This document shows positions 38,705 to 55,930 of a DNA stretch of 64,000 nucleotides, piece after piece. The DNA is taken from assembly GCF_006542275.1 (NCBI RefSeq), contig NZ_CP041217.1, positions 2,155,501-2,219,500 of the forward strand, given 5' to 3'. The notes below the pieces were generated by a model, which saw nothing but the letters and a program-made list of their open reading frames with translations, had not been told where the DNA came from and searched no databases. Made by a program: the position numbers and the translations under genes. Position 1 is the stretch's first letter; the number at the start of each line of letters is the position of its first letter. This stretch comes from Saccharibacillus brassicae (lineage in GTDB: Bacteria; Bacillota; Bacilli; Paenibacillales; Paenibacillaceae).

Positions 38705-39775
38705 TTAAGAACCGTTCATTTTGAACTGCAGGAACAATTCGTTGTAGCGGACCAGCCATTTTTTGCCCAGATTCTCGTACACTTCAAGCTGATTCGTCAG
38801 CTCGTCGGACGGATAGAAACGTTCGTCGCCCGAGATGTCTTCCGGCAGCAGCGCAAGCGCGGCGTCGTTCGGCGTCGAATACCCGACGTATTCCGTGTTC
38901 TGCGCGTTCACTTCCGGATCGAGCATGAAGTTGATAAACGCCATCGCCCCGTCGACGTTCTGCGCCGTTCTCGGAATGACCATGTTGTCGAAGTACAGGT
39001 TGGACCCTTCCTTCGGCACCACGTAATCGAGTTCTTCGTTCTCGCTCATGATCTCCGAGGCGTCGCCCGAAAATACAAGGCCCGCCGCCGCTTCGCCGTT
39101 CGCCAGCAGCAGCTTGATCTCGTCGCCGACGATCGCTTTGACGTTCGGCGTCAGGTCCATCAGATGGTCCAGCGCCTGCGCCAGATGCTGTTCGTTCTTG
39201 TCGTTAAGCGAATAGCCCTGGCTGACGAGCCCGGTGCCGATCACTTCGCGCGCCCCGTCGGTCAGCAGAATGTCGTTGCGAAGCGTCGGGTCCCACAGGT
39301 CTTCCCAGCTCTCGAACTTCAGGTCGGTCAGAGTCGGGTTGTAGACGACGCCGAGCGTGCCCCAGAAATACGGCATCGAGTACTCGTTGCCCGGGTCGAA
39401 CGACAGATCGAGGAACTTGGGATCGAGATGCCGCATATTCGGAATCTTGGCGTGATCGAGCGGAATAAGCAGATTCTCTTCCCGCATCTTCTCGATCGCG
39501 TAATCGGACGGGATCGCCACGTCGAACGTCGTGCCGCCCTGTTCGATCTTGGTCAGCATCGCTTCGTTCGAATCGAACGTCTGGTAGATGACCGTGATGC
39601 CCGTCTCTTCCTGAAAGCGGTCGAGCAGTTCGGGGTCGATATAATCGCCCCAGTTGTAGATGGTCAGCGTATTGCCGCTGCTGTAGCCTTCGCTGGAGTT
39701 CAGCCGGTTGGCGAGAAACATCAGCGCAAAAGCCGCGACCAGTATCAGGATCAGCGTGCGCGTCATCGATTTCAT
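38705..39775 (-). CDS. potD: Spermidine/putrescine-binding protein PotD
   Basis: 356 residues. Mature protein starts NTLTIYNWGDYIDPELLDRFQEETGI, the signature of polyamine-binding proteins; DVAIPSDYAIEKM, PYFWGTLGVVYNP and GDASEIMSEN follow. The N-terminus (MTRTLILILVAAFALMFLANRL) is hydrophobic but has no lipobox Cys, so the protein may be membrane-anchored or secreted rather than lipidated. Its ATG overlaps the stop of potC by 4 bases. It presents polyamine to the PotBC channel. Confidence 0.93.
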   Translation of the reverse strand: MKSMTRTLILILVAAFALMFLANRLNSSEGYSSGNTLTIYNWGDYIDPELLDRFQEETGITVIYQTFDSNEAMLTKIEQGGTTFDVAIPSDYAIEKMREENLLIPLDHAKIPNMRHLDPKFLDLSFDPGNEYSMPYFWGTLGVVYNPTLTDLKFESWEDLWDPTLRNDILLTDGAREVIGTGLVSQGYSLNDKNEQHLAQALDHLMDLTPNVKAIVGDEIKLLLANGEAAAGLVFSGDASEIMSENEELDYVVPKEGSNLYFDNMVIPRTAQNVDGAMAFINFMLDPEVNAQNTEYVGYSTPNDAALALLPEDISGDERFYPSDELTNQLEVYENLGKKWLVRYNELFLQFKMNGS

Positions 39776-40593
39776 TCCGGCACCCCCATTCGCGCGGCCG
39801 CGTCGGCCAGCTTGCGCTTTTCGCCGCGGCGCATCGAAATGTAGTACGCGACGACGAGGAACACGGTGAACAGGAAGATCAGCGTGGACAGCGCGTTGAT
39901 CGACAGCGAGACGCCCTGTCTGGCCCGCGAGTAGATTTCGACGGCAAGCGTCGAATAGCCGCTGCCTGTCACGAAGAACGTGACGGCGAAGTCGTCCAGC
40001 GAATACGTCAGCGCCATGAAGAAGCCGCTGAAGATGCCGGGACGGATAAACGGCAATATGACTTTGGTCAGCACGTCGCGCTTGCTCGCGCCGAGATCGC
40101 GTGCCGCGTCGAGCAGCGTCGGGCTCATCTCCTGCAGCCTCGGCAGGATCATGAGCACCGTGATCGGAATGCTGAACGCCACGTGCGAGATCAATACCGA
40201 AGCGAAGCCGAGCTTCACCCCGACCATCGTGAACAGGATCAGGAACGAAGCGCCGATGATGACGTCCGGGCTGACGATCAGCACGTTGTTAAGCGACAGC
40301 AGCGTGTTCTTGAGCCGGGCGCGCCGGATATTCTCGATCGCGAGCGATCCGAATACCCCGATGATCGTCGCGATCGTCGAAGACAGCAGCGCGATGACGA
40401 GCGTGTTGATCACGATGATGATCAGCCGCGTATCGGCGAACACTTCCTTGTAATAATCGAGCGTAAAGCCTTCGAAGCCGTGCATCGTGCCGCCGCTGTT
40501 GAACGAGTAGAACATCAGGTACAGGATCGGCGCGTACAGGACGGCGAAGACGAGGACCAGATACAGATTGGAGATGCCGTTCTTTTTCCTCAT
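39772..40593 (-). CDS. potC: Polyamine ABC transporter permease PotC
   Basis: 273 residues, six hydrophobic segments, beginning NLYLVLVFAVLYAPILYLMFYSFN. The EAA-type loop is [27 protein letters not shown]. Typical PotC length. It overlaps potB upstream and potD downstream by 4 bases each (ATGA), showing tight coupling. It forms the inner-membrane channel with PotB. Confidence 0.93.
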   Translation of the reverse strand: MRKKNGISNLYLVLVFAVLYAPILYLMFYSFNSGGTMHGFEGFTLDYYKEVFADTRLIIIVINTLVIALLSSTIATIIGVFGSLAIENIRRARLKNTLLSLNNVLIVSPDVIIGASFLILFTMVGVKLGFASVLISHVAFSIPITVLMILPRLQEMSPTLLDAARDLGASKRDVLTKVILPFIRPGIFSGFFMALTYSLDDFAVTFFVTGSGYSTLAVEIYSRARQGVSLSINALSTLIFLFTVFLVVAYYISMRRGEKRKLADAAARMGVPE

Positions 40594-41408
40594 CTTCGCA
40601 CCCCTTTTCCGGTTCCGCCGGTCAGGAACATGATGACGGCCATCGCGACGATCAGGAACACGGCGACGGTCGAGCCCATGCCCCAGTCCTGCGTGACGAG
40701 GAAGTGCTGCTCGATCGCCGTGCCGAGCGTGATGACCTTGTTGCCGGCGATCAGGCGCGTGATCATGAACAGCGACAGCGCCGGGATGAATACGGAGATG
40801 CAGCCCGATTTGACCCCGGAGAGCGTCAGCGGGAAAATGACCCGGCGGAACGTGATCCAGCTGGAAGCGCCCAGGTCGCGGGCGGCGTCGGTGAGCGACA
40901 CGTTCAGTTCTTCGAGCGCGTTATAGATCGGCATGATCATGAACGGCACGAAGATGTAGATCGACACGAACACGAAGCTTCCGCTCGTGAACAGCAGCTG
41001 CTGTTCGCCGAACCCGATCGAGCCGAGCAGGGCGTTGATCGGGCCGTACGTGCCGAAGATGCCGATGAACGCATACGTCTTGAGCAGCAGGTTGATCCAC
41101 GTCGGCAGGATGATGAGCAGCAGCCACAGCTGCTTGTGCTTGGTGCGCGTCAGCAGATACGCCGCCGGATACGCGATCAGCAGCGAGAACAGCGTAATAA
41201 GAAACGCGTACCAGAACGAACTCAGCGTCATGCTCAGATAGACGGGAGTGAAAAAGTCCGCGTAATTCGACAGCGTCAGATTGCCTTCCACGTCGAACAG
41301 CGAATAATAGACGACCAGCACGACAGGCGCGATAACGAACAACGCCACCCACAGATAATAAGGAATGTAGGCGAGCGACCGCGCGTTTCCGCTGCCCTTA
41401 CCGTTCAT
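40590..41408 (-). CDS. potB: Polyamine ABC transporter permease PotB
   Basis: 272 residues, six hydrophobic segments, first one [22 protein letters not shown]. Conserved [21 protein letters not shown] and EAA loop [24 protein letters not shown]. Overlaps the end of potA by 11 bases and potC by 4. Together with PotC it forms the channel energised by PotA. Confidence 0.93.
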
Positions 41409-42525
41409 GGACCGGCACTCCCGCGTCTTCGTCTTCTTCGTACGCTTCCAGGCGGCGGTCGAATTCTTCCTCCGTTTCGCCGAAACGCATGACGTGGATC
41501 GCTTCCGGATCGAACGTCAATCCGATCTGCGCGCCGACTTCGGCCCGTTTGGTCGAATGCACGAGCCATTCCTGGCCGGAATCGTCGTAGCAGCTAATCT
41601 CGTAATGGACGCCGCGGAACAGCTGCGAATCGACGCGGACTTGCATTTTGCCGGCTTCCGGCGTCGTGATCTCCAGATCTTCCGGACGAACGACGATCTC
41701 GATCGGCTCGTTCGGACGCAGTCCCGCGTCGACGCATTCGAAGCGCCGGCCGTTAAATTCGACGCGGTAGTCTTCGATCATGACGCCGGGCACGATATTC
41801 GATTCGCCGATAAAATCGGCCACAAAGCGGTTGATCGGCTCGTCGTAAATATCGTTCGGCGTGCCGCTCTGCTCGATCCGGCCCTGGTTCATGACGAAAA
41901 TATAATCCGACATCGCCAGCGCCTCTTCCTGGTCGTGCGTGACGAAGATGAACGTAATGCCCAGCCGCTGCTGCAGCTCGCGCAGGACGTACTGCATCTC
42001 GGTCCGCAGCTTGAGGTCGAGCGCGGACAGCGGCTCGTCGAGCAGCAGCACTTCCGGCTCGTTCACGATCGCCCGGGCGATCGCCACGCGCTGGCGCTGG
42101 CCGCCGGACATCTCGGTAATCGCGCGGTTCTCGTAGCCGTCGAGATTGACCATGTTCAACGCTTCCGTCACTTTGGCCGCGATGACGTTCGGCTTCATTT
42201 TCTTGATCCGCAGCCCGAACGCGACGTTCTCGAACACGTTCAGATGCGGGAACAGGGCGTAGTCCTGGAAGACGGTATTGACCTGCCGTTTCTCCGGCGG
42301 CACTTTGTTGATGACCCGTCCGCCCAGATAGATCGAGCCTTCCGTCGGTTCCATGAAGCCCGCGATCATGCGCAGGATGGTCGTTTTGCCGCAGCCCGAA
42401 GGACCGAGCAGCGTGTAGAACTTGCCCCGCTCGATTTCGAAATCGATCTTTTTGAGCACGGTGAGCCCGTCGTCGTACTGCTTCGTCACGGACTCGAAAC
42501 GAATGATGTGTGGATCTGTGATGAT
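41398..42525 (-). CDS. potA: Polyamine ABC transporter ATPase PotA, apparent ATC start
   Basis: About 375 residues. Walker [11 protein letters not shown]-loop [21 protein letters not shown], signature [15 protein letters not shown], Walker [13 protein letters not shown], switch His in [10 protein letters not shown], then a C-terminal TOBE-like regulatory domain ([12 protein letters not shown]). First gene of potABCD. The first standard start in frame is GTG at 42489, inside the strand preceding [15 protein letters not shown] is followed by ATC ATC ACA at 42525-42517, giving (M)[16 protein letters not shown], which matches usual PotA N-termini. Start taken as the first ATC; 42522 is equally possible. 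Confidence 0.9.
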
Positions 42526-42693
42526 GAAACCCCTCCTCTGGCAACCGGATGCCCGGACCCCGATCGGCTCCGGTCTTTTCCCGATATTTAACGGTATCTT
42601 TAACTTCTTTCTAACCGCTATTCTATAGAAAAAAACGCATGAAGGCTACATTTCTATGTATGCGGACGTCGCTTTCTTGATTAAAAAGCAGGG

Positions 42694-42723
42694 AAAAGAT
42701 CGGCTGCGGCAGCCCGATCTTTT
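42694..42723 (-). terminator. Terminator of the biosynthetic gene set
   Basis: AAAAGATCGG / CCGATCTTTT arms with inner GCTG-CGG-CAGC, about 50 bases past the acyltransferase stop at 42773. It separates this cluster from the pot operon. Confidence 0.8.
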
Positions 42724-42772
42724 CGGCGGAAGCCAGGCGCGGATCGCGAAGGCGATTCCCGCTCCGATTCCG

Positions 42773-44050
42773 TCAAAATTTATATTTGTGCATGATCGGC
42801 ACGCCGACCCGGTTGAGCAGCGGCGACAGCAGCGCCCAGCCGGCCCGGCGATGCGGCGGCAGATGCCGGTCGTACACGGCGCTGTATTCGATCTCCGCGA
42901 CCGCGCCGCGGTTGCGCTTGAACTGCGCCGCTCCGGCGCTCTCGTGCAGCAGGCAGCCTTCTTCGGCCGCCAGGCGCAGCAGCACCGCCGACAGCATGCG
43001 GTACAGCCCGATCTCCTGCGGCACGCCCGTGTCGTAGCCGAACACGGGCGTCGTCATGATGCCGCCCTGCGCGTAATAGCCGAGCACGGCGTCCAGCCGG
43101 CCGCTTGCCCGCGAGCGCAGCGCATGCAGCTTCAGCAGATTCGACCGCAGCGCCCGCTCAAAAAAGCGCGGCGTGAACGCCGGATTGTGCGCCGAATATT
43201 TGTCGAGGTACAGCAGCCGGTACAGCTCGGCCAGCCGCGGCGCGTCGGCTTCGCCCAACTCTTCCGGCCCGCACACGTCGTAGCCGTGCTTGTCCAGCAG
43301 GCCGTAATCGCGCTTCTGCAGCCAGCGGGCTTTGGACGGAATCCGGTCCGGCGCTTCGTACAGATACACCTGGCGGCTCGGCACGAGCCGGAAGCCCATC
43401 TCCGTCAGCGCGTCGAGACAACCGGGCGTCGTGCGGCGGTTGAGCGAACGGAATACGATCGAGCGGTCCGGGAACTCCCGGAGCAGCAGGGCAACGGCCG
43501 ATGCAAGAGCCGACCCGTCAAGCGGCGGATACAGATTCGTCGACAGCAGCCGGTTGTTGACCTGGACCGCGCGGTTGAACCGCGACGCCTTGAGCAGCCA
43601 GCCGGCCGGCGTCAACAGCACGCCGAGCAGGGCGCGGGCGGCGCGCGATTCCAGCAGCGACAGCTCCTCGCGCGCGTAGCTGATGTAATGCGTGTACGGC
43701 GAGAACACGTAGGAATCGCCGTATTCGCGTTCGCCCACGCTCAGCGGAAGCGTCACGCCGAGCGATTCGCAGCGCAGGGCGCGCAGCGTCGTATCGACGT
43801 TCGCGATCAGCGCAGGCACGCCTTCGCCCTGCATGGCGGACAGCCAGCGCAGCGTGGAGGCGTCGTCCGAATCTTCGTTAGGGGACGCTTCATTATAAGA
43901 TCCTTTATTGTCAGGTTTATTATTGAAAGATTCCTTACTGTAAGTAATCTTACTCTTCGCGGATTTGGCGTCCGCAGCTTCGCGGCGGGATCGTTGTTCC
44001 GTCAGCCAGCGCTCCAGACTGTCCCCTTCATACAGGTTCCATTCGGTCAT
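42773..44050 (-). CDS. GNAT-like acyltransferase of the KAS III / ATP-grasp cluster
   Basis: 425 residues. Residues ~25-65 are Ser/Lys/Asn-rich. No strict motif was identified, but the second half (LAELYRLLYLDKYSAHNPAFTPRFFERAL, then GRLDAVLGYYAQGGIMTTPVFGYDTG and LYRMLSAVLLRLAAEEGCLLHESAGAAQFKRNRG) has the layout of GNAT-type N-acyltransferases related to FemAB. Its ATG lies 23 bases inside the ligase gene, with AGAGGAGG 10 bases upstream, so it is coupled to it. It probably transfers an acyl group to the pathway product; donor and acceptor are unknown. Confidence 0.75.
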   Translation of the reverse strand: MTEWNLYEGDSLERWLTEQRSRREAADAKSAKSKITYSKESFNNKPDNKGSYNEASPNEDSDDASTLRWLSAMQGEGVPALIANVDTTLRALRCESLGVTLPLSVGEREYGDSYVFSPYTHYISYAREELSLLESRAARALLGVLLTPAGWLLKASRFNRAVQVNNRLLSTNLYPPLDGSALASAVALLLREFPDRSIVFRSLNRRTTPGCLDALTEMGFRLVPSRQVYLYEAPDRIPSKARWLQKRDYGLLDKHGYDVCGPEELGEADAPRLAELYRLLYLDKYSAHNPAFTPRFFERALRSNLLKLHALRSRASGRLDAVLGYYAQGGIMTTPVFGYDTGVPQEIGLYRMLSAVLLRLAAEEGCLLHESAGAAQFKRNRGAVAEIEYSAVYDRHLPPHRRAGWALLSPLLNRVGVPIMHKYKF

Positions 44051-45380
44051 TCACCGCAAACCTCCTCTGCACCCGTCTCAATTTGACCGCTCCGGGCACG
44101 AAGGCGTACGGCGCGAACGCCGTCTCCGGCATGGCCGCGCCGATACGCGCGCACAGCGCAGCCAGCGCATTTTCCACGTCGGATTCGGTCTGCGCCCGCG
44201 CCTCCGTTCCGGCTGCCGCGGCCGTATCCAGTTCGATCTCAAGCCTGTCCGGCGCGTGCAGGACGGCGCGGTACGCTTCGACCCGCTCCGACGCGCCGAT
44301 AATCGCCCGCGAGACGTAGTCCGGGAACAGCGTGACGAAGCCCGTCCCGTTTGCCGCCGGCAGCACGAACAAGTCGTCGCTCCGCCCTTCAATCCGCTCG
44401 ATCGCCGTAAAGGGCGAGCCGCAGGCGCAGGACACCGGACTTTCGGTCAGCAGGTCGCCGAGCCGGTAGCGCACGATCGGCTGGGAGAAGCGGACGAAAT
44501 CGGTTACGATCGGCACGAACGTTTTGCGCTCCGCGTCCACGTATTCTTTTTCGATATGGACGACGTCTTCGTTGAGATGCAGCGTCCCGTGGCTGCACGA
44601 CGCGCCCAGAAAACCTTCGGTGCACTGGTACACCTGATGGATACGCAGACCGAAGCTCTCTTCGATCATGCGCCGGTCCAGCGGATCGAGCACTTCGGCC
44701 ATCGACACCAGATGTCCGGGCGCGATGCGGAGCCGGCCGGAGCGAACTTCGCCCGCCAGCAGGCGCAGCATCGACGGCGGCGCGGCAAGCACGCTCGGAC
44801 GCTGCGCGTTCAGCCGTTCCACGTGCCGCTCAAGCGGATGCAGCAGATCGTAGAACTCGAACGCCACCCGCCGGCTGCGCACCGATCCGTACAAATTGCT
44901 GTCGGCCCGCAGGAAAAAAGCGATCCGGTGTCCCTGAAGCAGCGGTCCGGGCAGCACGCGCTGCAAAATGGTCCCCGTCCAGGCCAACCGCTCGCGGCGG
45001 CTGACGAGAAACAACCCCCGGCTGCCCGACGTGCCGGACGACAGGCCGATCGTCAGCCCGCCGATCTCCGGCGTGAAATCGCGCGTGCGCTCTCCTTCCA
45101 GCGCCAGCTCCATCGCTTCTTCGCGGCGGACGCCCGCCGTATTGAGCGTGTCGAAATGCTCCATCATCGCTTTTTTGTCGATCTCCGGGAACCGGCGCCA
45201 GTCCCGCGTATCCAGCCCCTGCCACAGCTCCCGGTAAAAAGGCGAAGCGGCACGCACCCTGTCCAGATGGCGGAGGATGCGCGGCTCCCGCCACCGTTCC
45301 AGAGCATCGCGATCCGGTATGGCCGCGCGCCGGCGTGCCGCCGCGTACTGCATAAGAATATGTAGGGAATCGGTCTTCAT
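44028..45380 (-). CDS. Adenylate-forming enzyme, F390 synthetase / phenylacetate-CoA ligase-like
   Basis: 450 residues; start 45380 with AGGAGG 9 bases upstream. The AMP-binding P-loop is LTIGLSSGTSGSRGLFLVSR; VYQCTEGFLG and VRYRLGDLLTE are the later ATP-contact motifs, and RSDDLFVLPAANG opens the C-terminal lid. A Cys pair (CACG) sits between VRYRLGD and the lid, as in coenzyme F390 synthetase-related proteins. It should activate a carboxylic acid as acyl-AMP. Within this cluster it could activate a beta-hydroxy or fatty acid intermediate, by inference only. Confidence 0.85.
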   Translation of the reverse strand: MKTDSLHILMQYAAARRRAAIPDRDALERWREPRILRHLDRVRAASPFYRELWQGLDTRDWRRFPEIDKKAMMEHFDTLNTAGVRREEAMELALEGERTRDFTPEIGGLTIGLSSGTSGSRGLFLVSRRERLAWTGTILQRVLPGPLLQGHRIAFFLRADSNLYGSVRSRRVAFEFYDLLHPLERHVERLNAQRPSVLAAPPSMLRLLAGEVRSGRLRIAPGHLVSMAEVLDPLDRRMIEESFGLRIHQVYQCTEGFLGASCSHGTLHLNEDVVHIEKEYVDAERKTFVPIVTDFVRFSQPIVRYRLGDLLTESPVSCACGSPFTAIERIEGRSDDLFVLPAANGTGFVTLFPDYVSRAIIGASERVEAYRAVLHAPDRLEIELDTAAAAGTEARAQTESDVENALAALCARIGAAMPETAFAPYAFVPGAVKLRRVQRRFAVNDRMEPV

Positions 45381-45431
45381 CGGCAGGTTCCTCCTGTTTG
45401 AAATGCGAATGTTCGGCGCAAAAGTTCGAGC

Positions 45432-45668
45432 GGCGCGCCCGAAGCGGAAAGTTCGGCGGTCGGCGGCGCATGCGCATGCCTCGCGCGGACGACGCGATTG
45501 AGGCGGGATGGGGCCGCAGGCCTTGCATAGCCCGCGCGGACGGCGCGATTGAGGCGGGATGGGCCTCAGGCGTTGCATAGCCCGCGCGGACGGCGCGATT
45601 GAGGCGGGATGGGCCTCAGGCGTTGCATAGCCCGCGCGGACGGCGCGCCCGAAGCGGAAAGTTCGGCG
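45432..45668. repeat. Minisatellite: three 50-bp tandem units flanked by a 27-bp direct repeat
   Basis: Units at 45491-45540, 45541-45590 and 45591-45640; the last two are identical and the first differs at a few positions. A sequence starting GGCGCGCCCGAAGCGG occurs on both sides (45432-45458 and 45642-45668). The 50-bp period is not a multiple of three and no gene crosses it. It lies between the MBL-fold and adenylate-forming genes. Confidence 0.92.
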
Positions 45669-45671
45669 CCC

Positions 45672-46712
45672 TTATAGCGGGCTGCCGCCTATCGCGTAGG
45701 CGGCTTCCGCTTCCGGGCAGTGCGAAGCGACGATGCGCAGCTCCGGGAAAGCTTCGTGCAGCCCGCGCAGCGCGCGGAAGCTGTCCGCGTAGGCGCGGCG
45801 GTCAGGCATGATAACGCCCGCAAGCGCGCTGGGCGGGCGGTCTTCCCGGTAAGCCGCCGCCGACCAGGCGGCATCGGCGCACAGCAGCGCCGGTCCGCGG
45901 GCCGTGCGCAGCAGCAGCCCGATCTGCCCGTAGGCATGGCCGGGCAGATCGACGGCGAGCAGGCTGCCGTCGCCGAGCACGTCGGTCAGGCGCCGCCAGG
46001 CAAAGCCGGGCAGGAACCCTTCCGGCACGTCGACGCGCGACTCCGGCGCGAACGGCCGCGCCCGGCGGTCGAAATCGCCGGGCAGCAGCCCCGGCAGGAA
46101 TCCGCGCTTGACCGCGCCGATCCCGCGCAGTCCGCGCATCTTGTCGAGCGCTTCGCGCTCGTACAAAAAGGACGCCTGCGGAAAATCGCGCAGTCCCGCC
46201 ACATGGTCGGCGTGAAAATGCGAGATAATAATGCGGCCGACCGCTTCCGGCCGCATGCCCGCGGCCCGCAGCCGTTCGGCCGCGCTCTGCCCGGCTTCGA
46301 ACTGCACCGGAGTCGTGATCCGGTACAGCCGTTCCGGGAACGGGTCCGTCTCGCGGAAAAAGCGGTCCGAATAGCCCGTATCGAACAGGATCAGGCCGTG
46401 CCGCGGATGGCGGATACAGGCGAACAGCGCCGGAATACGGACGCTGCGCAGCCGGCCGCCCCGGATCGTGACCCATTCCGGATGGCGGCAGCTTCCGGTC
46501 GGGAACAGCCTGAGTTCCACTCTGGGCGCGGGTCCGCCGGCCAGTTCCCAGAGCGAATCCAGCGCGGAAGGAGTCGGGCGCACGCCCGTTTTTGCCTCGT
46601 CCGATTCGGCAGTTCTCTCCGCATGCCTATTGGCGTTCGGGTTGACGTTCGGGTTGGCTTTCCTGTTGGAGTTCCGTTCGACGTTCGCTTCGGTATTCAA
46701 TTTGATTTTCAA
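45672..46712 (-). CDS. Metallo-beta-lactamase-fold hydrolase
   Basis: 346 residues from a TTG start at 46712 with GGAAGGAG upstream, overlapping the epimerase stop (TTGA). The first ~45 residues are Asn-rich (RKANPNVNPNANRHAERTAE) and look disordered. The core has FDTGYSD, the zinc motif ISHFHADHVAGL, DLPGHAYGQIGLLL, LLCADAAW, and a late ASHCPE. The order resembles the N-acyl-homoserine-lactonase branch of the superfamily. In the cluster it could open a lactone or cleave a thioester; this is inference. Confidence 0.88.
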   Translation of the reverse strand: MKIKLNTEANVERNSNRKANPNVNPNANRHAERTAESDEAKTGVRPTPSALDSLWELAGGPAPRVELRLFPTGSCRHPEWVTIRGGRLRSVRIPALFACIRHPRHGLILFDTGYSDRFFRETDPFPERLYRITTPVQFEAGQSAAERLRAAGMRPEAVGRIIISHFHADHVAGLRDFPQASFLYEREALDKMRGLRGIGAVKRGFLPGLLPGDFDRRARPFAPESRVDVPEGFLPGFAWRRLTDVLGDGSLLAVDLPGHAYGQIGLLLRTARGPALLCADAAWSAAAYREDRPPSALAGVIMPDRRAYADSFRALRGLHEAFPELRIVASHCPEAEAAYAIGGSPL

Positions 46713-47722
46713 CGCGATCGCTCTCCTTCCTGCCCGGTCCACCATTCGACGAAACGGTCCAGCCCTTCTTCGATGCCGACGAGCGGTTCGTAGCCGAGTC
46801 CGCTCCGCGCGGCGCCGATATCCAGCGTTTGGCTGCTGCCGAGCATGCCGACCAGCGCGCGGGTCAGCATCGGTTCGCCGCCCGAAGGCCGCAGCCGCGC
46901 GGCGCTTTCCATCAGGGAGGCGAGTGCATAAGCGGCGGCAAAAGACAGCTTTTTGCCGCGCAGCGGACGGCCCAGCTTCGCGAACAGCAGCCCGGCGGCC
47001 GCAGCCAAAGCAATCGGCGCGCCTCCGCTTATGTTATAAATGCGGGCGCCGTCCGAAAGTTCCGCCGGGGCGAACGCGGCCAGCTTGAGCGCGCGGACCG
47101 CGTCGTCCACGTACGTCAGGTCGATCAGCGCCTCACCTCCGCCGATCAGCGGCACGCCCGTCCGGCCGTTGGCTTCGATCAGCCGGGGCAGGATCGTGAG
47201 ATCTCCCGGCCCGTACAAAGCGCGGGGCCGCAGCACGATCGCGTCCAGCCCGAGCCGGCGCACGCGTTCGACTTCCTGTTCCGCCAGCCGTTTGGTCCGG
47301 GCGTACGCGCTGATCGGCTTCGCGGGCAGCGGATCGTGTTCCCGCACGCCGATCCGGGCTTTGGCCCCGAAATACAGGCTCGGCGTGGAGATATGTACGA
47401 GGCGGGACACGCCGGCGCGCAGGCAGGCTTCCGCCACATTCGCCGTGCCGTTCACATTCGCCGCCATGAACGTCTCTTCCCGTCCCCACGCAGCGGAATG
47501 CGCGCCGCAGTGGATCACGGCGTCGAATCCCGTGCCTATCGCCCGCCCGATAGCTTCCGCATCGTCCAGTTCCGCGCGGACGAAGCGGATTCCGCTCTGC
47601 TCCAGCCGCTCGCCGGCCTGTACGCTTCGGCCCAAGCCGGTCACTTCGTGTCCGTCTTCCAGCAGGCTTCGCGCCGTATGCCCGCCCAAAAACCCGGTCG
47701 CTCCGGTCACCAAAATCTTCAT
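46709..47722 (-). CDS. NAD-dependent epimerase/dehydratase family (extended SDR)
   Basis: 337 residues; start 47722 with GGAGG 8 bases upstream. Nucleotide motif TGATGFLGG, VIHCGAHSAAWG, catalytic YxxxK in SAYARTKRLAE, with HISTPSLYFG before it. The C-terminal LRPRALYGPGDLTILPRLIEA and YVDDAVRAL fit the 3-beta-hydroxysteroid dehydrogenase / OleD-like branch. It probably reduces or epimerises an oxo intermediate with NAD(P)H. It overlaps the downstream MBL gene. Confidence 0.9.
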   Translation of the reverse strand: MKILVTGATGFLGGHTARSLLEDGHEVTGLGRSVQAGERLEQSGIRFVRAELDDAEAIGRAIGTGFDAVIHCGAHSAAWGREETFMAANVNGTANVAEACLRAGVSRLVHISTPSLYFGAKARIGVREHDPLPAKPISAYARTKRLAEQEVERVRRLGLDAIVLRPRALYGPGDLTILPRLIEANGRTGVPLIGGGEALIDLTYVDDAVRALKLAAFAPAELSDGARIYNISGGAPIALAAAAGLLFAKLGRPLRGKKLSFAAAYALASLMESAARLRPSGGEPMLTRALVGMLGSSQTLDIGAARSGLGYEPLVGIEEGLDRFVEWWTGQEGERSR

Positions 47723-47775
47723 TTTCCGTCCCTCCAGAGGCCGTGATGTTGAATTTTGCCCGTAAATTTCGGCGC

Positions 47776-47957
47776 TGTGTACAACTTTTTCCAAAACAAA
47801 TTTTTCATTCATCCACAGAAAAGGGGGGTGGTTATCCACGTTGTCCACGGTTTTTCCCCAATTTGGACACGAAATAGCCTAAAACAGTCCTTTTAGACAC
47901 TTCTCCACATGTGGATAACTTTTTTTCGCCCAAGGGGTTGTCCCTCCCTTATGCACA
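47776..47957. promoter_or_regulatory. Cluster of DnaA-box-like 9-mers in an AT-rich gap
   Basis: Against TTATNCACA: perfect boxes at 47910-47918 (reverse) and 47949-47957; one mismatch at 47776-47784 (reverse), 47809-47817, 47832-47840 and 47901-47909; two mismatches at 47841-47849. The boxes at 47901 and 47910 form an inverted pair. No dnaA or dnaN gene is near, so this is probably an accessory DnaA-binding cluster, not oriC. The 340-base gap around it has no gene. Confidence 0.65.
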
Positions 47958-48062
47958 CGCAGCGCCCGGTATCCTTTTGGCAGGATCTCTCCGGGACGGA
48001 CTTTGTATCCGCGACACCTCGGCGGGCTGCCGGAATCGCGTCCGGGCCGAACGGCCTTCGCT

Positions 48063-49547
48063 TCAATCGTTCGGACGGGCGGCTCGCCCGTCGATCCCTT
48101 CTTCCCCGATCGGCTGGCCGTCCCAGCCGATATCGGCTACCGAAGCTTCCGACAGCGAACCTCCGATCGAACGCGCGCGGCGGCGAAGTTCCAGCATCAT
48201 GCGCAGCGCCTGCGGCAGCACGCGGGCGTCGCCGCGCCGCAGCAGCACGTCGCGCGAGCCGCGCAAATCGCGCAGCCAGCCGGCAAACCGCCTGGGCCGC
48301 GTCAGCTGGCCCAGTCCGCTGCCGAGCATCGGCAGCAGCAGCATCGGCGTCCTCGCCGGCCGGGCCAGAATCACGGCGTCCACCGTATCCGGCCGCGCCA
48401 GCGCATCCGTCAGGTCCGGAACGCGCCGACGATCGCCGGACGCGGACAGCTCCGCGTGCTCCGCGTCCCCGCGCGAAGTTCCGCCGCCCGCGGCCTGCGG
48501 CGCAAGCAGCAGATGCACGCCGCTTGTGGCGCGCGGATTGCATTCGATCGGCAGCAGCTCCCCTTCCTCCGTCCGGATGAAGTCGAACGCCAGCTGACCG
48601 CTGAAGTTCGTCCGCTCCACGAAGCGGACCACCCATTCCCGCACCTGCGGATCGGCGTCGGGTTCGAAGCAGACGGACGCTCCGCTCGCCGTCTGCGGCG
48701 CGCGATACGCCGCGTGCGCGAGCAGCCGCCCTTCGTGCGCCGCTCCGTACGTGCACAGCAGCTCGCCCGCGGCGTAGCGCTGCGCCACCCACGACCCGCC
48801 CGCGCGGCGCGCATGCTCGCGCGCTTCGCCGAGCGAGCCGTGCCGGGACACCCCGGCCGAGAACCGGGAAAACTCCGGCTTCAGCACATAAGCCGGATCG
48901 CCGGGCGCCGTCCGCGGAATCCGCCCTTCGATGCGCGCTTCTTCGCGGCCGCTTCCCCGGCCCCCGCCGCCGGATAGCGCTTCGCTCGGGGCCGCTCCGC
49001 CTTCGCCCACGCTTTCCCCGGCTCCGCTTGGCGCCACGCCCGTCCACTGGGCTTCACTCCCAGCTTCCCGGCCTTCCTCCGCGTCTCCCCCGACCTCTCC
49101 GCTATCTCCGGCGCTTCCGCCAGCCCCATCCGCAAACGTCAGCCGCACCGTTTCCGGCACGGCCAACCCCAACCGCGCGCACAGCGCGATAAACGCCCAT
49201 TTGCTGTGCAGTTCGCGCAGCGTCCCCAGCGGGGGCGCGAGCACGCGGCAGTCCGGGCCGAAGCTGCCCCGGTACGCGGAAACGTAGAAGATTTCCTCGC
49301 AGGTCGGCAGCAGCAGACCGATACCCTCGCGGCGCACGATGTCGCGCAGCGCAGCCGCGTAGCCCGCCGGGTCCTGCGCCGGCGGCGGCACGCGGAAGCT
49401 CCGCTTGACCGCGCGCGAAGCCGCGCACAGCGGATGCTCCAGACTCTCGGCGGCATACACCTCCGCGCCTCTCGCCGCGAAAGCGCGCGCCAGGTCCAGC
49501 GCGCAAGGCGCGCGGCCGCCCGTAATCAGAACGCGCAGCCCGTTCAT
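48063..49547 (-). CDS. ATP-grasp ligase with low-complexity insert
   Basis: 494 residues; start 49547, GGGGGAG close upstream. The N-terminal pre-ATP-grasp fold begins MNGLRVLITGGRAPCALDLARAFAARGAEV. After LAVPETVRLTF comes a ~75-residue Gly/Glu/Ser-rich insert, then the ATP-grasp domain (YVLKPEFSRFSAGVS; LAFDFIRTEEGELLPIECNPRATSGVHLL, the metal-binding Glu and Asn). ATP-grasp enzymes join a carboxylate, through acyl phosphate, to an amine or thiol. In this cluster it could ligate an amino acid to an acyl chain. It follows the KAS III gene by 53 bases. Confidence 0.88.
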   Translation of the reverse strand: MNGLRVLITGGRAPCALDLARAFAARGAEVYAAESLEHPLCAASRAVKRSFRVPPPAQDPAGYAAALRDIVRREGIGLLLPTCEEIFYVSAYRGSFGPDCRVLAPPLGTLRELHSKWAFIALCARLGLAVPETVRLTFADGAGGSAGDSGEVGGDAEEGREAGSEAQWTGVAPSGAGESVGEGGAAPSEALSGGGGRGSGREEARIEGRIPRTAPGDPAYVLKPEFSRFSAGVSRHGSLGEAREHARRAGGSWVAQRYAAGELLCTYGAAHEGRLLAHAAYRAPQTASGASVCFEPDADPQVREWVVRFVERTNFSGQLAFDFIRTEEGELLPIECNPRATSGVHLLLAPQAAGGGTSRGDAEHAELSASGDRRRVPDLTDALARPDTVDAVILARPARTPMLLLPMLGSGLGQLTRPRRFAGWLRDLRGSRDVLLRRGDARVLPQALRMMLELRRRARSIGGSLSEASVADIGWDGQPIGEEGIDGRAARPND

Positions 49548-49600
49548 GACGTCTCCCCCTTCTTGGGGCCGTCGCCCCGCGTGTCCATGCGCCGCGCGCC

Positions 49601-50599
49601 TCAATAGACCAGCGCGATCCCGCCGAGCGACAGCCCGGCCGACGTGCCGACCAACAGCACGTTGTCGCCGCGTTCCAGCCGACCTTCGCGCACGGCCCGG
49701 TCCAGCCCGAGCGGAATCGAAGCGGCGATGACGTTGCCGTAATGCGGCGCGATATAGAGCATTTGCTCCTCGCTGATGCCCAGCTTGCGCTGAAGCAGCC
49801 GCATGGCCATCACGCTGCCCTGATGCGGCACGACGAGCTTGAAGTCGGCCATGGACAAGCCGGCGCCGCCCAGCAGTTCCTGCATGAACGCCGGCAGCAG
49901 GCGCGAAGCCTGGCGGAAGATGCCTTCGCCGTCCATCGAGAACAGGTAATCGGCGGCCGCAGCGGAGCTGTAGGACGCAGACGGCAGGCCGCTGCCTCCG
50001 CCCCGGATCTCCGAATGGCGCGCGCCTGCGCTGTGCGTCGTCATCCGGGCATGCAGGATGCGCGAAGGCTCGCCCGCAGCGGAGCGTTCCACGACCGCGG
50101 CGGCGGCTCCGTCGCCGAACAGCGCCGCGCTTTCTTTGTCGGACCAGTTCAGCCCTTTGGACGCGATCTCGCTGGACACGATCAGCACCCGGCGATAGCG
50201 GCCCGCGTCCACGAGATACGACAGCGTGTCGAGCGCGGTCACGAAGCTCAGGCAGGTCGCATTGATGTCGAAGCACGGCACGCCGGATTCTTCTTCGCCC
50301 AGCGCGCGCTGGATCAGCGCGGCCGTGCACGGAATCGGCTGCTCCATCGTACCGCTTGCGCAGACGAGGCAGTCCATATCGGCAAAAGCCAGTCCGGCTC
50401 TCTCCAGCGCTTCGCGGGCCGCTTCCGCACCCATCTGCGAAGCGGTCTCCGCGCCGACGAAATGCCGGTTGGCCACGCTCGTCTTGCGCATGACCCAGCC
50501 CGGTTCGGTCCCCAGCCTGTCGTCGATCTGTGCGGCCGATATGCCGACTCCCGGCAAATACCGTCCCGTTCCCGTAATTTTGACATGACGCGCTTCCAT
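49601..50599 (-). CDS. 3-oxoacyl-ACP synthase III (FabH)-like enzyme
   Basis: 332 residues; start 50599 with GGGGG 7 bases upstream. Thiolase fold with the KAS III triad: Cys in FDINATCLSFVTALD, His in KLVVPHQGSVMA, Asn in APHYGNVIAASIPLGL; GDGAAAAVVE and the end GTSAGLSLGGIALVY are conserved. Start HVKITGTGRYLPG is typical. It condenses an acyl thioester with another acyl or malonyl thioester. As it sits away from fab genes and beside an ATP-grasp ligase, a specialised pathway is likelier than housekeeping FabH. First gene of the cluster. Confidence 0.92.
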   Translation of the reverse strand: MEARHVKITGTGRYLPGVGISAAQIDDRLGTEPGWVMRKTSVANRHFVGAETASQMGAEAAREALERAGLAFADMDCLVCASGTMEQPIPCTAALIQRALGEEESGVPCFDINATCLSFVTALDTLSYLVDAGRYRRVLIVSSEIASKGLNWSDKESAALFGDGAAAAVVERSAAGEPSRILHARMTTHSAGARHSEIRGGGSGLPSASYSSAAAADYLFSMDGEGIFRQASRLLPAFMQELLGGAGLSMADFKLVVPHQGSVMAMRLLQRKLGISEEQMLYIAPHYGNVIAASIPLGLDRAVREGRLERGDNVLLVGTSAGLSLGGIALVY

Positions 50600-50693
50600 A
50601 ACCATTCCCCCTACCGAGTATCTGACCCCACCCTCCGGCGTTTGCCGGCCGCGAATTCGTGATCGGCGGCCGACCGCTTCGGGTTTTGTCTTC

Positions 50694-50699
50694 ATTATA
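50694..50699 (-). promoter_or_regulatory. -10 element of the KAS III gene
   Basis: TATAAT on the minus strand, about 95 bases before the KAS III start; the -35 region is a poor match. This would be the start of the 42.8-50.6 kb cluster transcript. Confidence 0.4.
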
Positions 50700-50771
50700 C
50701 GACGGACGGTCCGCGCGGTTTCTCACATTCGCCGCGCTTCGGCCGTTCCAACCTTCATTCACACGCCCAAA

Positions 50772-50813
50772 CAAAAAAAATCGCTTCCGGTTCGAGGCTC
50801 AAAAAGAGCGATT
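50772..50813 (-). terminator. Terminator of the ydjO-like gene
   Basis: AATCGCT / AGCGATT arms, loop of about 21 bases, followed on the minus strand by eight T. Confidence 0.65.
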
Positions 50814-50888
50814 CGTACCGAAAACGATTTGATGTTGGGTCTTCAATGAACTCATGTATGGCGCTTGCTTTCGACCGGTCTGCCGGTC

Positions 50889-51104
50889 TTACTTGTTCTG
50901 CGCTTTAGGATCTCCGGTCGGATTGGCCAGCACCGGAAGCATTTTCGTATCCCGTTTCATCGAAGACGAGCAGATCGGACACTTCGGTTCATCCTCGAAC
51001 GAAAAGTTGTCTCTCATCCAGCCCTTGCAGTCTTCCTGCTCGCAAGTCCATACCGCGGTGCTTTCTTTCACAAGTTCCTCGTCCTGTTTTTTACGAAAAT
51101 ACAT
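50889..51104 (-). CDS. Cold-inducible protein, YdjO-like
   Basis: 71 residues. A four-Cys zinc-ribbon pattern (WTCEQEDCKGWMRDNFSFEDEPKCPICSS) is the core of the YdjO family, named from cold induction in Bacillus subtilis. The role is unknown, perhaps RNA or protein binding. It lies next to, and on the same strand as, a cold-shock protein gene, with a terminator in between. Confidence 0.88.
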   Translation of the reverse strand: MYFRKKQDEELVKESTAVWTCEQEDCKGWMRDNFSFEDEPKCPICSSSMKRDTKMLPVLANPTGDPKAQNK

Positions 51105-51183
51105 GCTCGATGCCTCCCCGCATTTGATAGGGGCCGCAGCCGGTCCCGGTATATGTTAATCGTTAAAAAGTTGTCTCCAAGTG

Positions 51184-51221
51184 AAAAAGGACTGCCCCCA
51201 ACGCATGGTTAAGAGCAGTCC
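51184..51221 (-). terminator. Terminator of the cold-shock protein gene
   Basis: GGACTGC / GCAGTCC arms with a TTTTTC tail on the minus strand, 14 bases past the csp stop. Confidence 0.85.
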
Positions 51222-51234
51222 GTTCATTGAGTTC

Positions 51235-51435
51235 TTACAGTTTAGTTACGTTTTCAGCTTGTGGTCCACGGTTGCCTTCAACGATGTTGAATTCTACGCG
51301 TTGGCCTTCGTCGAGGGTTTTGAAACCGTCGCCTTGGATAGCGGAGAAGTGAACGAATACGTCGCTTCCGCCTTCTACTTCGATAAAGCCGTAACCTTTT
51401 TCTGCGTTAAACCATTTTACTGTTCCTGTTTCCAT
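51235..51435 (-). CDS. Cold-shock protein, CspA/CspB family
   Basis: 66 residues; start 51435 with GGAGG 9 bases upstream. The single OB-fold cold-shock domain has RNP1 (KGYGFIEV) and RNP2 (VFVHFSAI) and begins [16 protein letters not shown]. It binds single-stranded RNA or DNA and prevents mRNA structure at low temperature. The long leader contains two inverted repeats that may give temperature control. Confidence 0.97.
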
Positions 51436-51827: not shown

Positions 51828-52535
51828 TTACGAACTCCGGACTTTTCCGTAAGCCAGCGAACTGATGCCGATCCCCGCCTCGTACAGCAGGATGAGCGGC
51901 AGCGTCACGATCAGCAGCGACAGCGCGTCCGGCGGAGCGATGAAGCCGGCGGCGACCAGCAGGGCCAAATACGCGTACTTGCGGATACGCCGCAGCGAAG
52001 CCGGAGTCACGATCCCGAGCCGGGTCAGCAGCGTCAATAGAAGCGGAAGTTCGAACAGGATGCCAAAAGGAACGACAAGCCGCAGCATGAAGTCGAAATA
52101 TTCGCGAATGCCGATCACCGGCTCAAGTCCCAACTCCGCCGTCAGCCCGAACATAAAGCGCAGCATGACCGGAAACACGATCTCGTACGCAAACGCCGCC
52201 CCGACCAGGAACAACGCGAAGATCGCAAAAATATGCAGCCGGATCGCGCGGCGTTCGGCTCCGTACAGCCCCGGCTTGACGAACTGCCACGTCTGATGCA
52301 GCGCAAGCGGCAGAATCAACACCGCGGCGAACCAGAACGCGGCCTGCACCATAATGGAGAGCGCGTCCGTCACGCGGAACACGTGCAGCGACACGCCGAG
52401 CTCCGCGCCGGAACGTTCGAGCAGGCCGATGACCGGAGGCGCCGCGAAGAACCCGCCGACGAACAGCGCGAGAAAAACGCCCGCGCATACCAGCAGGCGC
52501 CGACGCAGCTCGACCACGTGATCCAGCAGTCCCAT
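51828..52535 (-). CDS. tatC: Twin-arginine translocase subunit TatC
   Basis: 235 residues from the ATG at 52535 (GAGG 5 bases upstream). MGLLDHVVELRRRLLVC is the typical TatC start; six hydrophobic segments follow, with GLYGAERRAIRLHIFAIFALFLVGAAFAYEIVFPVMLRFM and FELPLLLTLLTRLGIV conserved. An in-frame start at 52607 would overlap tatA by 62 bases and is less likely. TatC recognises the RR signal of Tat substrates, here plausibly EfeB. Lies directly after tatA. Confidence 0.93.
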   Translation of the reverse strand: MGLLDHVVELRRRLLVCAGVFLALFVGGFFAAPPVIGLLERSGAELGVSLHVFRVTDALSIMVQAAFWFAAVLILPLALHQTWQFVKPGLYGAERRAIRLHIFAIFALFLVGAAFAYEIVFPVMLRFMFGLTAELGLEPVIGIREYFDFMLRLVVPFGILFELPLLLTLLTRLGIVTPASLRRIRKYAYLALLVAAGFIAPPDALSLLIVTLPLILLYEAGIGISSLAYGKVRSS

Positions 52536-52545
52536 GCGCGCCTCG

Positions 52546-52806
52546 TCAGGGAGAGTCGGGCCGTCCTCCCCCGCCTTCGCCTTCAACCGGCTCTTTCGAC
52601 AGGGCAACCGTCGGCGCCGCTTCGGCCGATTTGCGTGCGGCCGCGCCCGAATCCTTGGCGGAGTCGTCTCCGAGTCCCCGCGTCGCGCTGCGGAATTCCT
52701 TCAGCGTCTCTCCGGCCGCACGCCCCAGCTCCGGCAGCTTTTTCGGACCGAACACCAACAAGGCCACCCCTACTACGACCGCAATGCTTCCCGGCCCAAA
52801 AGCCAT
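52546..52806 (-). CDS. tatA: Twin-arginine translocase subunit TatA
   Basis: 86 residues; start 52806 with GGAGG 8 bases upstream. One N-terminal membrane helix ([18 protein letters not shown]), the hinge [18 protein letters not shown], and an amphipathic helix followed by a charged Ala/Glu-rich tail. It forms the Tat pore with TatC. The promoter region contains a Fur box. Confidence 0.95.
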
Positions 52807-52831
52807 AGTCAACGCCTCCGTTTTACATAAT

Positions 52832-52846
52832 TGATAATGATTATCA
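52832..52846. promoter_or_regulatory. Fur box upstream of tatA
   Basis: TGATAATGATTATCA is a near-perfect 7-1-7 Fur box, 25 bases before the tatA start. It predicts iron repression of tatAC. Confidence 0.88.
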
Positions 52847-53059
52847 CCTAAGCGAAATAAACTCAGTATAGAGCGCGCGAAAGCCCTTGTCAAACTTAAA
52901 TCTTCCCCACGAAAACGGAAAACCGTTTCGGTGGATATTCGGCTGTAATCGTTGCTGTTATGGGCTTTGTCTTCCCGCTCACCCCGGACGTACCTGCTAA
53001 TTTTTTGACATTGACAACCGTCTTCCGCGCTTCTATACTCAGAGTTACTTTTAACCAAA
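52847..53059. other. Divergent tatA / efeU promoter region
   Basis: Noncoding stretch between the two Fur boxes. It must contain promoters for both directions; TTGACA at about 53004-53009 is a possible plus-strand -35, but no exact pair was confirmed. Confidence 0.4.
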
Positions 53060-53074
53060 TGATAATCATTATCA
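53060..53074. promoter_or_regulatory. Fur box upstream of efeU
   Basis: TGATAATCATTATCA is a near-perfect 7-1-7 Fur box, about 48 bases before efeU. It predicts iron repression of efeUOB. Confidence 0.9.
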
Positions 53075-53121
53075 AAATGAATACAACGAACGAGGCGTTA
53101 CCCGGAAAGGAAGATTCGTCC

Positions 53122-54597
53122 ATGTCCATCCCGTTTCTGATTCCTGTCCGCGTTCGTGTCCCGGCCGTCCTGCTGGCGCTGCTTCTGCTGCTCGGCATCT
53201 TCGGCGGGCACGCTTCGGCTGCCGGCGATGCGCCGGCCCCGGCCGACGCGCTCGCGGCCGTGGACGCAGCCCTGCTTCAGCTCCGCAGCGGCGACGCGGA
53301 AGCCTCGAAAGCCAGCTTCGCGCCGGTCAAGTCGTGGTGGGCCCGCAGCAAGCAGGGCGCCAAAGCCGACTCCGCGGCGCTTTCCGCCGAAATCGGCAGC
53401 GGGATCGCCGACGTGTCGCTGGCCTATGTCGGCGGCGATCCCGGCGAGATCCGCTCGAAGCTTGAAGCGCTGCGCCTCGCGCTCGTCAGCTACGACGAAG
53501 GCGCCTACGCCGACAACGAAGGCCGTACCCGCATGACGCTCGGCGCTTACCTATCGAAGCTTGGCGGCGTCAAATCGGCGATCGAAGCCGGCGATCCGGA
53601 CGGCGCGGCCCGCGGAGCGCGGGAGCTGCAGAACCTGTGGCTGGCCGTCGAAGGCGAAGTCGTCGGCCGTTCGGCTTCCGTCTACGCGAATACCGAACGC
53701 GATCTCGTGCTGCTGCCCGCCTACCTGGACGATCCGGACCAGATCGACCGGGCCGTGCCGCTGCTCGACAACATGATCGCCGCGCTGACGCCGCTCGCCG
53801 ACGCCGGCTACAGCTGGATCGACGCGGCGCTCATTCCGATCCGGGAAGGACTTGAAGCGCTGCTCGTCGTCGGCTCGCTGCTCGCTTTCGTCCGCAAGTC
53901 CGGCTCCGCGCGCGGACAGCGCTGGATCGTCGCCGGTTCGGCGGCCGGCCTACTGTTCTCGGTCGCGGCGGGCGCCGGCGTCTCGCTGCTGCTGTCCGCT
54001 TCCGTGTTCGGGGCGGGCAACTCGCTGCTGAACGGCTGGACCGGCATTGCGGCCGCCGCCATGCTGCTGTACGTCGGGTATTGGCTGCACCGCAGCTCCG
54101 ATATCCGGCGCTGGAACGAGAAGCTGCAAGCAGGCAGCCGCCGTGCCCTTTCGGGCGGGTGGACGTTTTCGCTTGCGCTGCTCGCTTTTCTCGCGATCGT
54201 ACGCGAAGGACTGGAGACCGTCATCTTCCTGATCGGCCTCGCCGGCCGGATGCCGGGACGCGAACTGCTGCTGGGGATCGGAGCCGGATTCGGCGTGCTG
54301 ATCGTCGTCGCCGTCGTCATCTTGAAGCTGGGCGACCGGCTGCCGTTGAGACCTTTTTTCCTCATTTCAAGCGTCGTCGTGTTCTATCTGGGCTTCAAAT
54401 TTCTCGGCTCGGGCATTCACAGCCTGCAGATGGCGGGCCTGATTCCGTCCACGACCGAAAGTTACCTGCCGTCGATCCCGTCGATCAGCCTGTATTCCTC
54501 ATGGTACAGCACGCTGCCCCAACTGCTGCTTCTGTCCGCCGCGCTGGCCGCCTATCTCGGTCCGCTGCTGCCCCGCAGAAGCCGCCGGGCGGCCTGA
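53122..54597 (+). CDS. efeU: Iron permease EfeU/FTR1 family
   Basis: 491 residues; start 53122 with GGAAAGGAAG 8 bases upstream. An N-terminal signal (AVLLALLLLLGIFGGHASA) and ~230-residue extracytoplasmic helical part precede the FTR1 membrane domain of about seven helices. The two iron-binding REGLE motifs are present (PIREGLEALLVVGSL and IVREGLETVIFLIGL). It imports iron supplied by EfeO and EfeB. First gene of efeUOB, under a Fur box. Confidence 0.95.
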   Translation: MSIPFLIPVRVRVPAVLLALLLLLGIFGGHASAAGDAPAPADALAAVDAALLQLRSGDAEASKASFAPVKSWWARSKQGAKADSAALSAEIGSGIADVSLAYVGGDPGEIRSKLEALRLALVSYDEGAYADNEGRTRMTLGAYLSKLGGVKSAIEAGDPDGAARGARELQNLWLAVEGEVVGRSASVYANTERDLVLLPAYLDDPDQIDRAVPLLDNMIAALTPLADAGYSWIDAALIPIREGLEALLVVGSLLAFVRKSGSARGQRWIVAGSAAGLLFSVAAGAGVSLLLSASVFGAGNSLLNGWTGIAAAAMLLYVGYWLHRSSDIRRWNEKLQAGSRRALSGGWTFSLALLAFLAIVREGLETVIFLIGLAGRMPGRELLLGIGAGFGVLIVVAVVILKLGDRLPLRPFFLISSVVVFYLGFKFLGSGIHSLQMAGLIPSTTESYLPSIPSISLYSSWYSTLPQLLLLSAALAAYLGPLLPRRSRRAA

Positions 54598-54636
54598 TCC
54601 CGCTTTTTTTCCTATTCCATTTACGGAGGTACCCCC

Positions 54637-55905: not shown

Positions 55906-55930
55906 GCGCCACGGAGCGGAGGACGAAAAG

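Follow-up and report, generated by a model that had tools for sequence, protein, structure and literature searches.

Among the described systems that resemble the locus treated here, the olefin (Ole) pathway has an operon that unites a thiolase-fold synthase, an OleD-like short-chain dehydrogenase/reductase (SDR), a hydrolase and an AMP-forming ligase. Its hydrolase OleB is a decarboxylase and not a metallo-β-lactamase (MBL) protein. For the single enzymes, counterparts are CorB and MxnB, which according to excerpts of PMC5724707 act in polyketide pathways and make α-pyrones, the aminoacyl transferases MprF and FemX, and the family TIGR02304, to which our ligase belongs and whose name, 'F390 synthetase-related protein', assigns no reaction. 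The locus lies in a stretch of 64,000 nucleotides of Saccharibacillus brassicae (NZ_CP041217.1, positions 2,155,501 to 2,219,500), called the window in the following. There, positions 42773–50599 hold six minus-strand open reading frames (ORFs), all intact and transcribed in the order β-ketoacyl-acyl-carrier-protein synthase III (KAS III), ATP-grasp protein, SDR, MBL hydrolase, adenylate-forming ligase and Gcn5-related N-acetyltransferase (GNAT)-like protein.

The cluster has the four enzyme types of the Ole pathway in common with it, but its synthase is without the Glu-Pro motif of OleA, its ligase is of the TIGR02304 type, its hydrolase is an MBL protein (PF00753 Lactamase_B) in place of anything OleB-like, and ATP-grasp and GNAT-like genes are added. 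By analogy, it follows the Ole pathway in logic, not in membership. With CorB and MxnB, the top PDB matches of the synthase, it shares Gln85, Ser247, Ile/Val276, Thr304 and the lack of a glutamate at the OleA position. Where those two enzymes work in polyketide pathways, the cluster has no polyketide synthase gene among its six but contains an SDR and a ligase. The predicted double-GNAT fold of the GNAT-like protein recalls MprF and FemX, but no membrane domain is predicted in its model. We read the cluster as the version, in Paenibacillaceae, of a widespread pathway that builds lipids and has exchangeable head-group enzymes, and give this lipid reading an even chance of being right. The cluster is real, conserved and apparently undescribed. 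No paper on it was found in the open-licence PMC literature, which is weak evidence, as most subscription journals lie outside. 'Coenzyme F390 synthetase' genes of Pseudomonas appear in tables in portions of PMC5467263 and PMC9823363, and the latter tabulates a transposon mutant of a kiwifruit-canker Pseudomonas in a gene with this label.

Conservation of the cluster

A scan of 84,980 species genomes with a ligase alignment yielded at least 584 relatives, the best 80 of which were used. Picked by ligase similarity, these loci lean toward near kin, and not all of them are Paenibacillaceae. With profiles built from the same 80 loci and score limits set by us, the genes for KAS III, ATP-grasp, SDR, MBL and ligase were recognisable in exactly this order in 76 of 80 loci. 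The five-gene unit is therefore more than a chance arrangement. The initial annotation had named, as one possible refutation, that the families might not be neighbours in other Paenibacillaceae; they are neighbours there. Among the 76 ordered loci the GNAT gene is present in 51, a second SDR, absent from the window, in 59, and both in 35.

By a stricter count, with one full-length match for each of the five genes, 70 of the 80 loci remain. The failing ten comprise L105 without MBL, L156 without ATP-grasp, L144 without ATP-grasp and SDR and with a short KAS, the three Brevibacillus loci L099, L102 and L103, and four loci (L111, L116, L121, L128) in which a gene is split or the best match is short. 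In the three Brevibacillus loci a deletion of about 900 bases has fused what is left of SDR and MBL (at approximately 9034–9986), the other genes staying open. In Paenibacillus MSJ-34 (L105, 8955–11263) the MBL gene is cleanly lost and the SDR overlaps the ligase; this loss suggests that the MBL step can be bypassed. Locus L063 (4546–10161) contains two ATP-grasp genes, the first preceding the SDR, the second following the ligase.

A 398-genome sample of the Bacillota gave nine genomes over the ligase cut-off (window included), seven with at least SDR and MBL adjacent. In a 59-genome sample of relatives 17 were over the cut-off (window included); the SDR adjoins the ligase in all 17 and the MBL gene also in 16. 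At family level 71 of 197 genomes exceeded the cut-off, at genus level 13 of 16, with the own genome counted in both. From these fractions it follows that the cluster is common but accessory. Where present, it is a conserved unit.

The core beyond the Bacillota

KAS III, SDR, MBL and TIGR02304 ligase form a four-gene core that persists together across phyla, mostly in the same order, and was seen in Paracoccus, Rhizobium, Shinella, Burkholderia, Pseudomonas, Fusobacterium and E. coli. The same order was found in E. coli, Paracoccus (two), Ketogulonicigenium, Shinella, Rhizobium (two), Paraburkholderia, Roseateles, Pseudomonas FeN3W and B. stagnalis. Of 72,556 plasmid records, 82 were matched by the ligase in a tblastn search; 40 of them were listed, and 13 contexts were inspected. 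Nine of these 13 carry KAS, SDR, MBL and ligase in order, two of them with ATP-grasp between KAS and SDR. They are P. urinalis, Pontibacillus, E. coli, Paracoccus alcaliphilus, Pseudomonas FeN3W, Ketogulonicigenium, Paraburkholderia, Shinella and B. stagnalis, the record of the last being unannotated, with core genes assigned by profile. The order is SDR, MBL, ligase, KAS in Fusobacterium, also an unannotated record; in Pseudomonas Leaf58 other genes lie between those of the core, in P. amygdali only ligase and ATP-grasp are close together, and in Rubrobacter there is only a ligase-like gene. A search with KAS matched 26 plasmid records, and by coordinates the ligase lies within about 4 kb in at least 20 of them. 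Six of these contexts were inspected: four show the core in order, and Paracoccus TOH has KAS alone. The sixth, a Priestia megaterium plasmid (L177, 6992–10620), bears a KAS homologue, an acyl carrier protein (ACP) gene and an MMPL transporter, with no ligase annotated nearby. In 14 named control genomes the ligase family was over the cut-off in one, Deinobacterium chartae.

A chromosome of E. coli sequence type 131 (ST131) harbours a seven-gene version between narI and tRNA-Tyr/purU (L166, 8001–14882). This set occurs in 672 of 5,426 complete E. coli genomes, in 671 at 80% coverage or more, so a conserved cross-phylum biosynthetic core becomes testable in a tractable species. Window and E. 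coli proteins are 38% identical for KAS and 46% for the ligases over the best segment. Pairwise, the distances of the core proteins correlate with r of 0.93–0.95 over 90 loci and 0.86–0.90 over 20 mostly distant loci, and none of 499 permutations reached any observed value. This correlation shows shared history, not function.

The neighbours of the core vary by lineage. ATP-grasp and GNAT genes stand beside it in the Bacillota and Paraburkholderia; GNAT, Rieske and ATP-grasp genes in Shinella, Rhizobium BT03 and Roseateles; and DUF3419, the BtaA family, with a GNAT homologue in Rhizobium NIBRBAC000502774. A sulfotransferase with a TetR gene accompanies it in two Paracoccus and in Ketogulonicigenium (Pfam was run on one). 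In E. coli the neighbours are PAP2, FA_hydroxylase and FA_desaturase, and B. stagnalis has their homologues, ordered alike. Fusobacterium has Glyco_transf_21, and genome G347 a GT28-like glycosyltransferase. In some lineages the fetched stretch shows the core without such neighbours; Pseudomonas FeN3W is one of them, and there a 530-aa protein without family match adjoins the core. The cross-phylum core, its swapping neighbours and the double-GNAT fold described below go beyond the initial annotation.

The six gene products

Features of the six genes are collected in Table 1. The SDR and MBL genes overlap by 4 nt and the ligase and GNAT genes by 23 nt; because the remaining gaps measure 53, 340 and 291 nt, tight coupling in the window is limited to these two pairs. 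In the relative L184 the genes overlap at all five junctions, with start codons as called. The initial annotation of six genes, several of them overlapping or coupled, with intact motifs is confirmed for the ORFs and for the motifs that it named, with tight coupling at two pairs.

Table 1. Genes of the cluster at 42773–50599 of the window, in transcription order.
Feature	Position	Strand	Characteristics
KAS III synthase	49601–50599	−	PRK07204 family; Cys-His-Asn; residues common to CorB/MxnB; without OleA glutamate
ATP-grasp protein	48063–49547	−	PRK06849-like, below cut-off; fold near PurK, PylC, L-amino-acid ligases
Extended SDR	46709–47722	−	Top model OleD 2-alkyl-3-oxoalkanoate reductase, 238 bits vs cut-off 580
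MBL-fold hydrolase	45672–46712	−	Lactonases nearest; HxHxDH + His, Asp, His; TTG start, uncertain
Adenylate-forming ligase	44028–45380	−	TIGR02304 (F390 synthetase-related); motifs and C-terminal lysine present
GNAT-like protein	42773–44050	−	Predicted double-GNAT fold as in MprF/FemX transferases

When relatives are aligned, four of the enzymes retain their catalytic residues in at least 97% of rows: Cys-His-Asn of KAS (97 rows), Tyr-x3-Lys of the SDR (94 rows), HxHxDH plus His, Asp and His of the MBL protein (95 rows), and SxGTSG, Thr-Glu-Gly and the C-terminal Lys of the ligase (105 rows). Short rows had been removed beforehand (one KAS, four SDR, four MBL, one ligase).

The KAS III reaches 443 bits with PRK07204 (cut-off 402) and 220.1 bits with the FabH model TIGR00747, under its cut-off of 292.1. 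Its first PDB sequence matches are MxnB (4v2p, identified from excerpts of PMC5724707; E 1.8e-66) and CorB (E 3.3e-62), with FabH chains behind. Residues were compared, in E. coli FabH numbering, in an alignment of 32 selected cluster KAS with FabH, MxnB and CorB and without OleA. Cys, His and Asn are invariant. Gln85, Ser247 and Ala306 occur in all 32 cluster sequences, position 276 is Ile or Val, and 304 is Thr in 31 of 32; MxnB and CorB have Ile276. The four printed FabH rows show Asn247, Ser276 and, at 304, Phe (three) or Ile (one). Position 304 corresponds to T322 of MxnB, counted by hand from the catalytic cysteine C121, a residue that passages of PMC5724707 place near the junction of the two acyl tunnels of MxnB. 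The column of the OleA glutamate was located via Val94 of MxnB (FabH position 87), which aligns with the glutamate base of the PpyS/OleA type in the available text of PMC4578411. The cluster KAS have Ile (17) or Leu (15) in this column, followed by Pro in 32 of 32; for OleA, Glu117-Pro is reported in all but two of the proteins aligned in that study (PMC7064751, in part). Since Ile or Leu replaces the glutamate in all 32, OleA-type base catalysis is unsupported. A two-chain reaction like that of MxnB is possible for the cluster KAS III, as judged from these residues.

In the KAS tree a split at 100/100 sets five FabH rows apart, and 33 cluster-type rows, among them Paracoccus TOH, are joined at 95/82. 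Tight grouping with housekeeping FabH, named in the initial annotation as a refutation, is thus not seen. CorB and MxnB form their own branch on the cluster side, with a long-branch warning for Priestia with MxnB; the tree contains no OleA row. PRK09258, which covers OleA, had no match in 249 Bacillota genomes, and as the controls gave none either, this shows no absence. The host genome encodes two further FabH-like copies, 31% and 29% identical to the cluster KAS III. An additional distant KAS III-like gene (L175; 25% identity) was noted in the same genome.

With 2-alkyl-3-oxoalkanoate reductases as top NCBIfam models, all four SDRs tested agree, yet each stays below the OleD cut-off: 238.2 bits in the window, 154.3 in E. 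coli, 177.7 in Fusobacterium and 199.9 in Paraburkholderia. The Ole-analogous route of the initial annotation is partly supported and stands as an analogy: OleD as top SDR model makes the comparison fair, whereas the absent OleA glutamate is a weak point. The MBL protein weakly matches models of acyl-homoserine lactone (AHL) lactonases in NCBIfam, and its top PDB relatives are lactonases. Its putative role in place of OleB, as had been suggested, is another weak point of that proposal, the gene being cleanly lost in one genome. The ligase meets TIGR02304 at 478 bits (cut-off 251.9) and reaches merely 19.8 bits with the coenzyme F390 synthetase model, which fits its first description as F390-synthetase-like and not a close OleC. 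Its SxGTSG, Tyr-x-x-Thr-Glu-Gly and C-terminal Lys motifs are preserved, and its PDB relatives are phenylacetate-CoA-ligase-like.

The ATP-grasp protein scores 294 bits with PRK06849, below the cut-off of 406. Its model (mean confidence, pLDDT, 83.7) has a low-confidence insert at about residues 142–196. For the GNAT-like protein neither NCBIfam nor Pfam gave a match, DUF2156 included. The model (pLDDT 90.9) resembles aminoacyl-phosphatidylglycerol synthase (aPGS) domains of MprF, the Sba18/Sbb17 peptide synthases and FemX, with Foldseek E values of about 2e-8 to 4v36, 5vrv and 9j8q. At fold level, the prediction contains two GNAT domains of the aPGS/FemX kind. The Paraburkholderia GNAT homologue scores 24.8 with Acetyltransf_6, over the cut-off of 22, which the window protein does not exceed. 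Pfam also found no match for the ligase or the ATP-grasp protein. Phage families were not matched by the GNAT or ATP-grasp protein, and anti-phage defence was rejected as a function, the six proteins having no PADLOC match at E 0.001.

Proposed pathway and alternatives

In the proposed lipid pathway KAS III would load an acyl chain on its cysteine and condense it with a further unit. This partner would be malonyl-ACP or, as in CorB and MxnB, another acyl thioester, probably a 3-keto one. The MBL hydrolase may release the product acid, acting as thioesterase or lactonase, the OleD-like SDR would reduce the 3-keto group to a 3-hydroxy acid, possibly α-alkylated like a small mycolic acid, and the ligase would adenylate the acid ready for transfer. 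In the window, the ATP-grasp and double-GNAT proteins could then attach a head group of the amino-acid type; other lineages would use other tailoring enzymes. Several neighbours of the core are enzymes of lipids or alcohols, which suggests that the product has a lipid backbone and that its head groups are exchangeable. A more specific version, possible though doubtful, has the core making a two-tailed 3-hydroxy acid backbone that is elaborated differently from lineage to lineage, into amino-acid, aminocarboxypropyl, sulfate, sugar or hydroxylated variants. Such a backbone would be ceramide- or mycolate-like, formed without sphingolipid or mycolate genes, and might, as tentatively, represent a modular, previously unnamed lipid class. 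If the two-tailed version is true, an unrecognised lipid is made by roughly every eighth E. coli with a complete genome, ST131 included.

Several points weigh against the lipid pathway. The product is a prediction from genes, and gene adjacency does not equal function. KAS III could equally use malonyl-ACP, leading to a single chain, and in a larger published tree (PMC4578411, as far as excerpted) the FabH clade contains MxnB and CorB. Core genes are dispensable in places, as seen in the Brevibacillus reuszeri-type loci with merged SDR and MBL and in the genome from which MBL is absent. L156 and L186 are without ATP-grasp and GNAT, and for L072 and L073 (two of the nine in the phylum sample) the fetched stretch shows no other core gene near the ligase. 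Head-group types are thinly sampled, with one record each for DUF3419, Glyco_transf_21 and the GT28-like enzyme and three for the sulfotransferase. The first fold matches of the ATP-grasp protein are PurK-type, those to PylC and L-amino-acid ligases coming after. Fold matches of the GNAT-like protein include tandem acetyl-CoA GNATs, its TM-scores by query length are 0.27–0.46 in the rows shown, and its top row, 3frm, is a protein of unknown function.

The Pseudomonas quinolone signal (PQS) pathway employs PqsA as acid-activating ligase and PqsE as thioesterase. If our cluster followed a similar order, the ligase would first activate an aryl or short acid, KAS III would condense it with malonate, the MBL protein would serve as a thioesterase like PqsE and the SDR would reduce the product, giving a small diffusible molecule and not a membrane lipid. 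The phenylacetate-CoA-ligase-like relatives of the ligase and the presence of PQS enzymes (3h76, 6esz) among the KAS III matches speak for this order; we nevertheless consider both it and its diffusible product unlikely, with lipid enzymes as tailoring neighbours in E. coli, Burkholderia and Fusobacterium and a KAS closer to CorB and MxnB than to PqsC-type chains. The top KAS matches are pyrone synthases according to parts of PMC5724707 and PMC4578411, and lactonases lead the MBL models, so that a β-lactone or α-pyrone could be formed by CorB-like condensation and OleD-like reduction, with the ligase closing the ring. Protecting the producer or recycling the lactone would then fall to the lactonase-like MBL, a role we hold to be quite improbable, as we do the lactone product itself: Pfam gives no match for the ligase, not even PF00501, an operon that both builds and opens a lactone would be futile without timing, and neighbours of the lipid type occur in other lineages.

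Membership in the true Ole pathway, favoured by OleD as top SDR match, is very improbable. The absent OleA glutamate and the sub-cut-off OleD score speak against it, and the listed NCBIfam matches of the six proteins (for the SDR, 25 of 59) include no family named OleB or OleC. Housekeeping fatty-acid genes placed side by side by chance have next to no probability. The KAS III does match FabH models, though below cut-off, but the host has its two other FabH-like copies and the gene order is conserved, across phyla too; the tree with its separate FabH rows and the residues rule out a housekeeping FabH. The lipid pathway, if true, adds a lipid class. Should it be wrong, TIGR02304, PRK07204 and PRK06849, the latter two named 'beta-ketoacyl-ACP synthase III' and 'hypothetical protein' by NCBI, still gain a pathway context.

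Surroundings of the cluster

No RNA genes or riboswitches were detected in the window at the gathering threshold, and no tRNA was found there. A pattern scan of 42300–51300 revealed no sigma-70-type promoter and ten terminator-like sites, compared to 8.4 in shuffles. Directly after the cluster, 38705–42489 on the minus strand resembles by eye a set of potABCD-type polyamine ABC transporter genes; two permease families of this set occur in eight and seven of 88 loci (window included), mainly in Saccharibacillus. At 51828–57298, inspection by eye suggests TatC/TatA-like genes together with an iron-uptake-like set whose members resemble FTR1, EfeO and Dyp-peroxidase, and the Dyp-peroxidase-like protein bears what appears by eye to be a twin-arginine signal.

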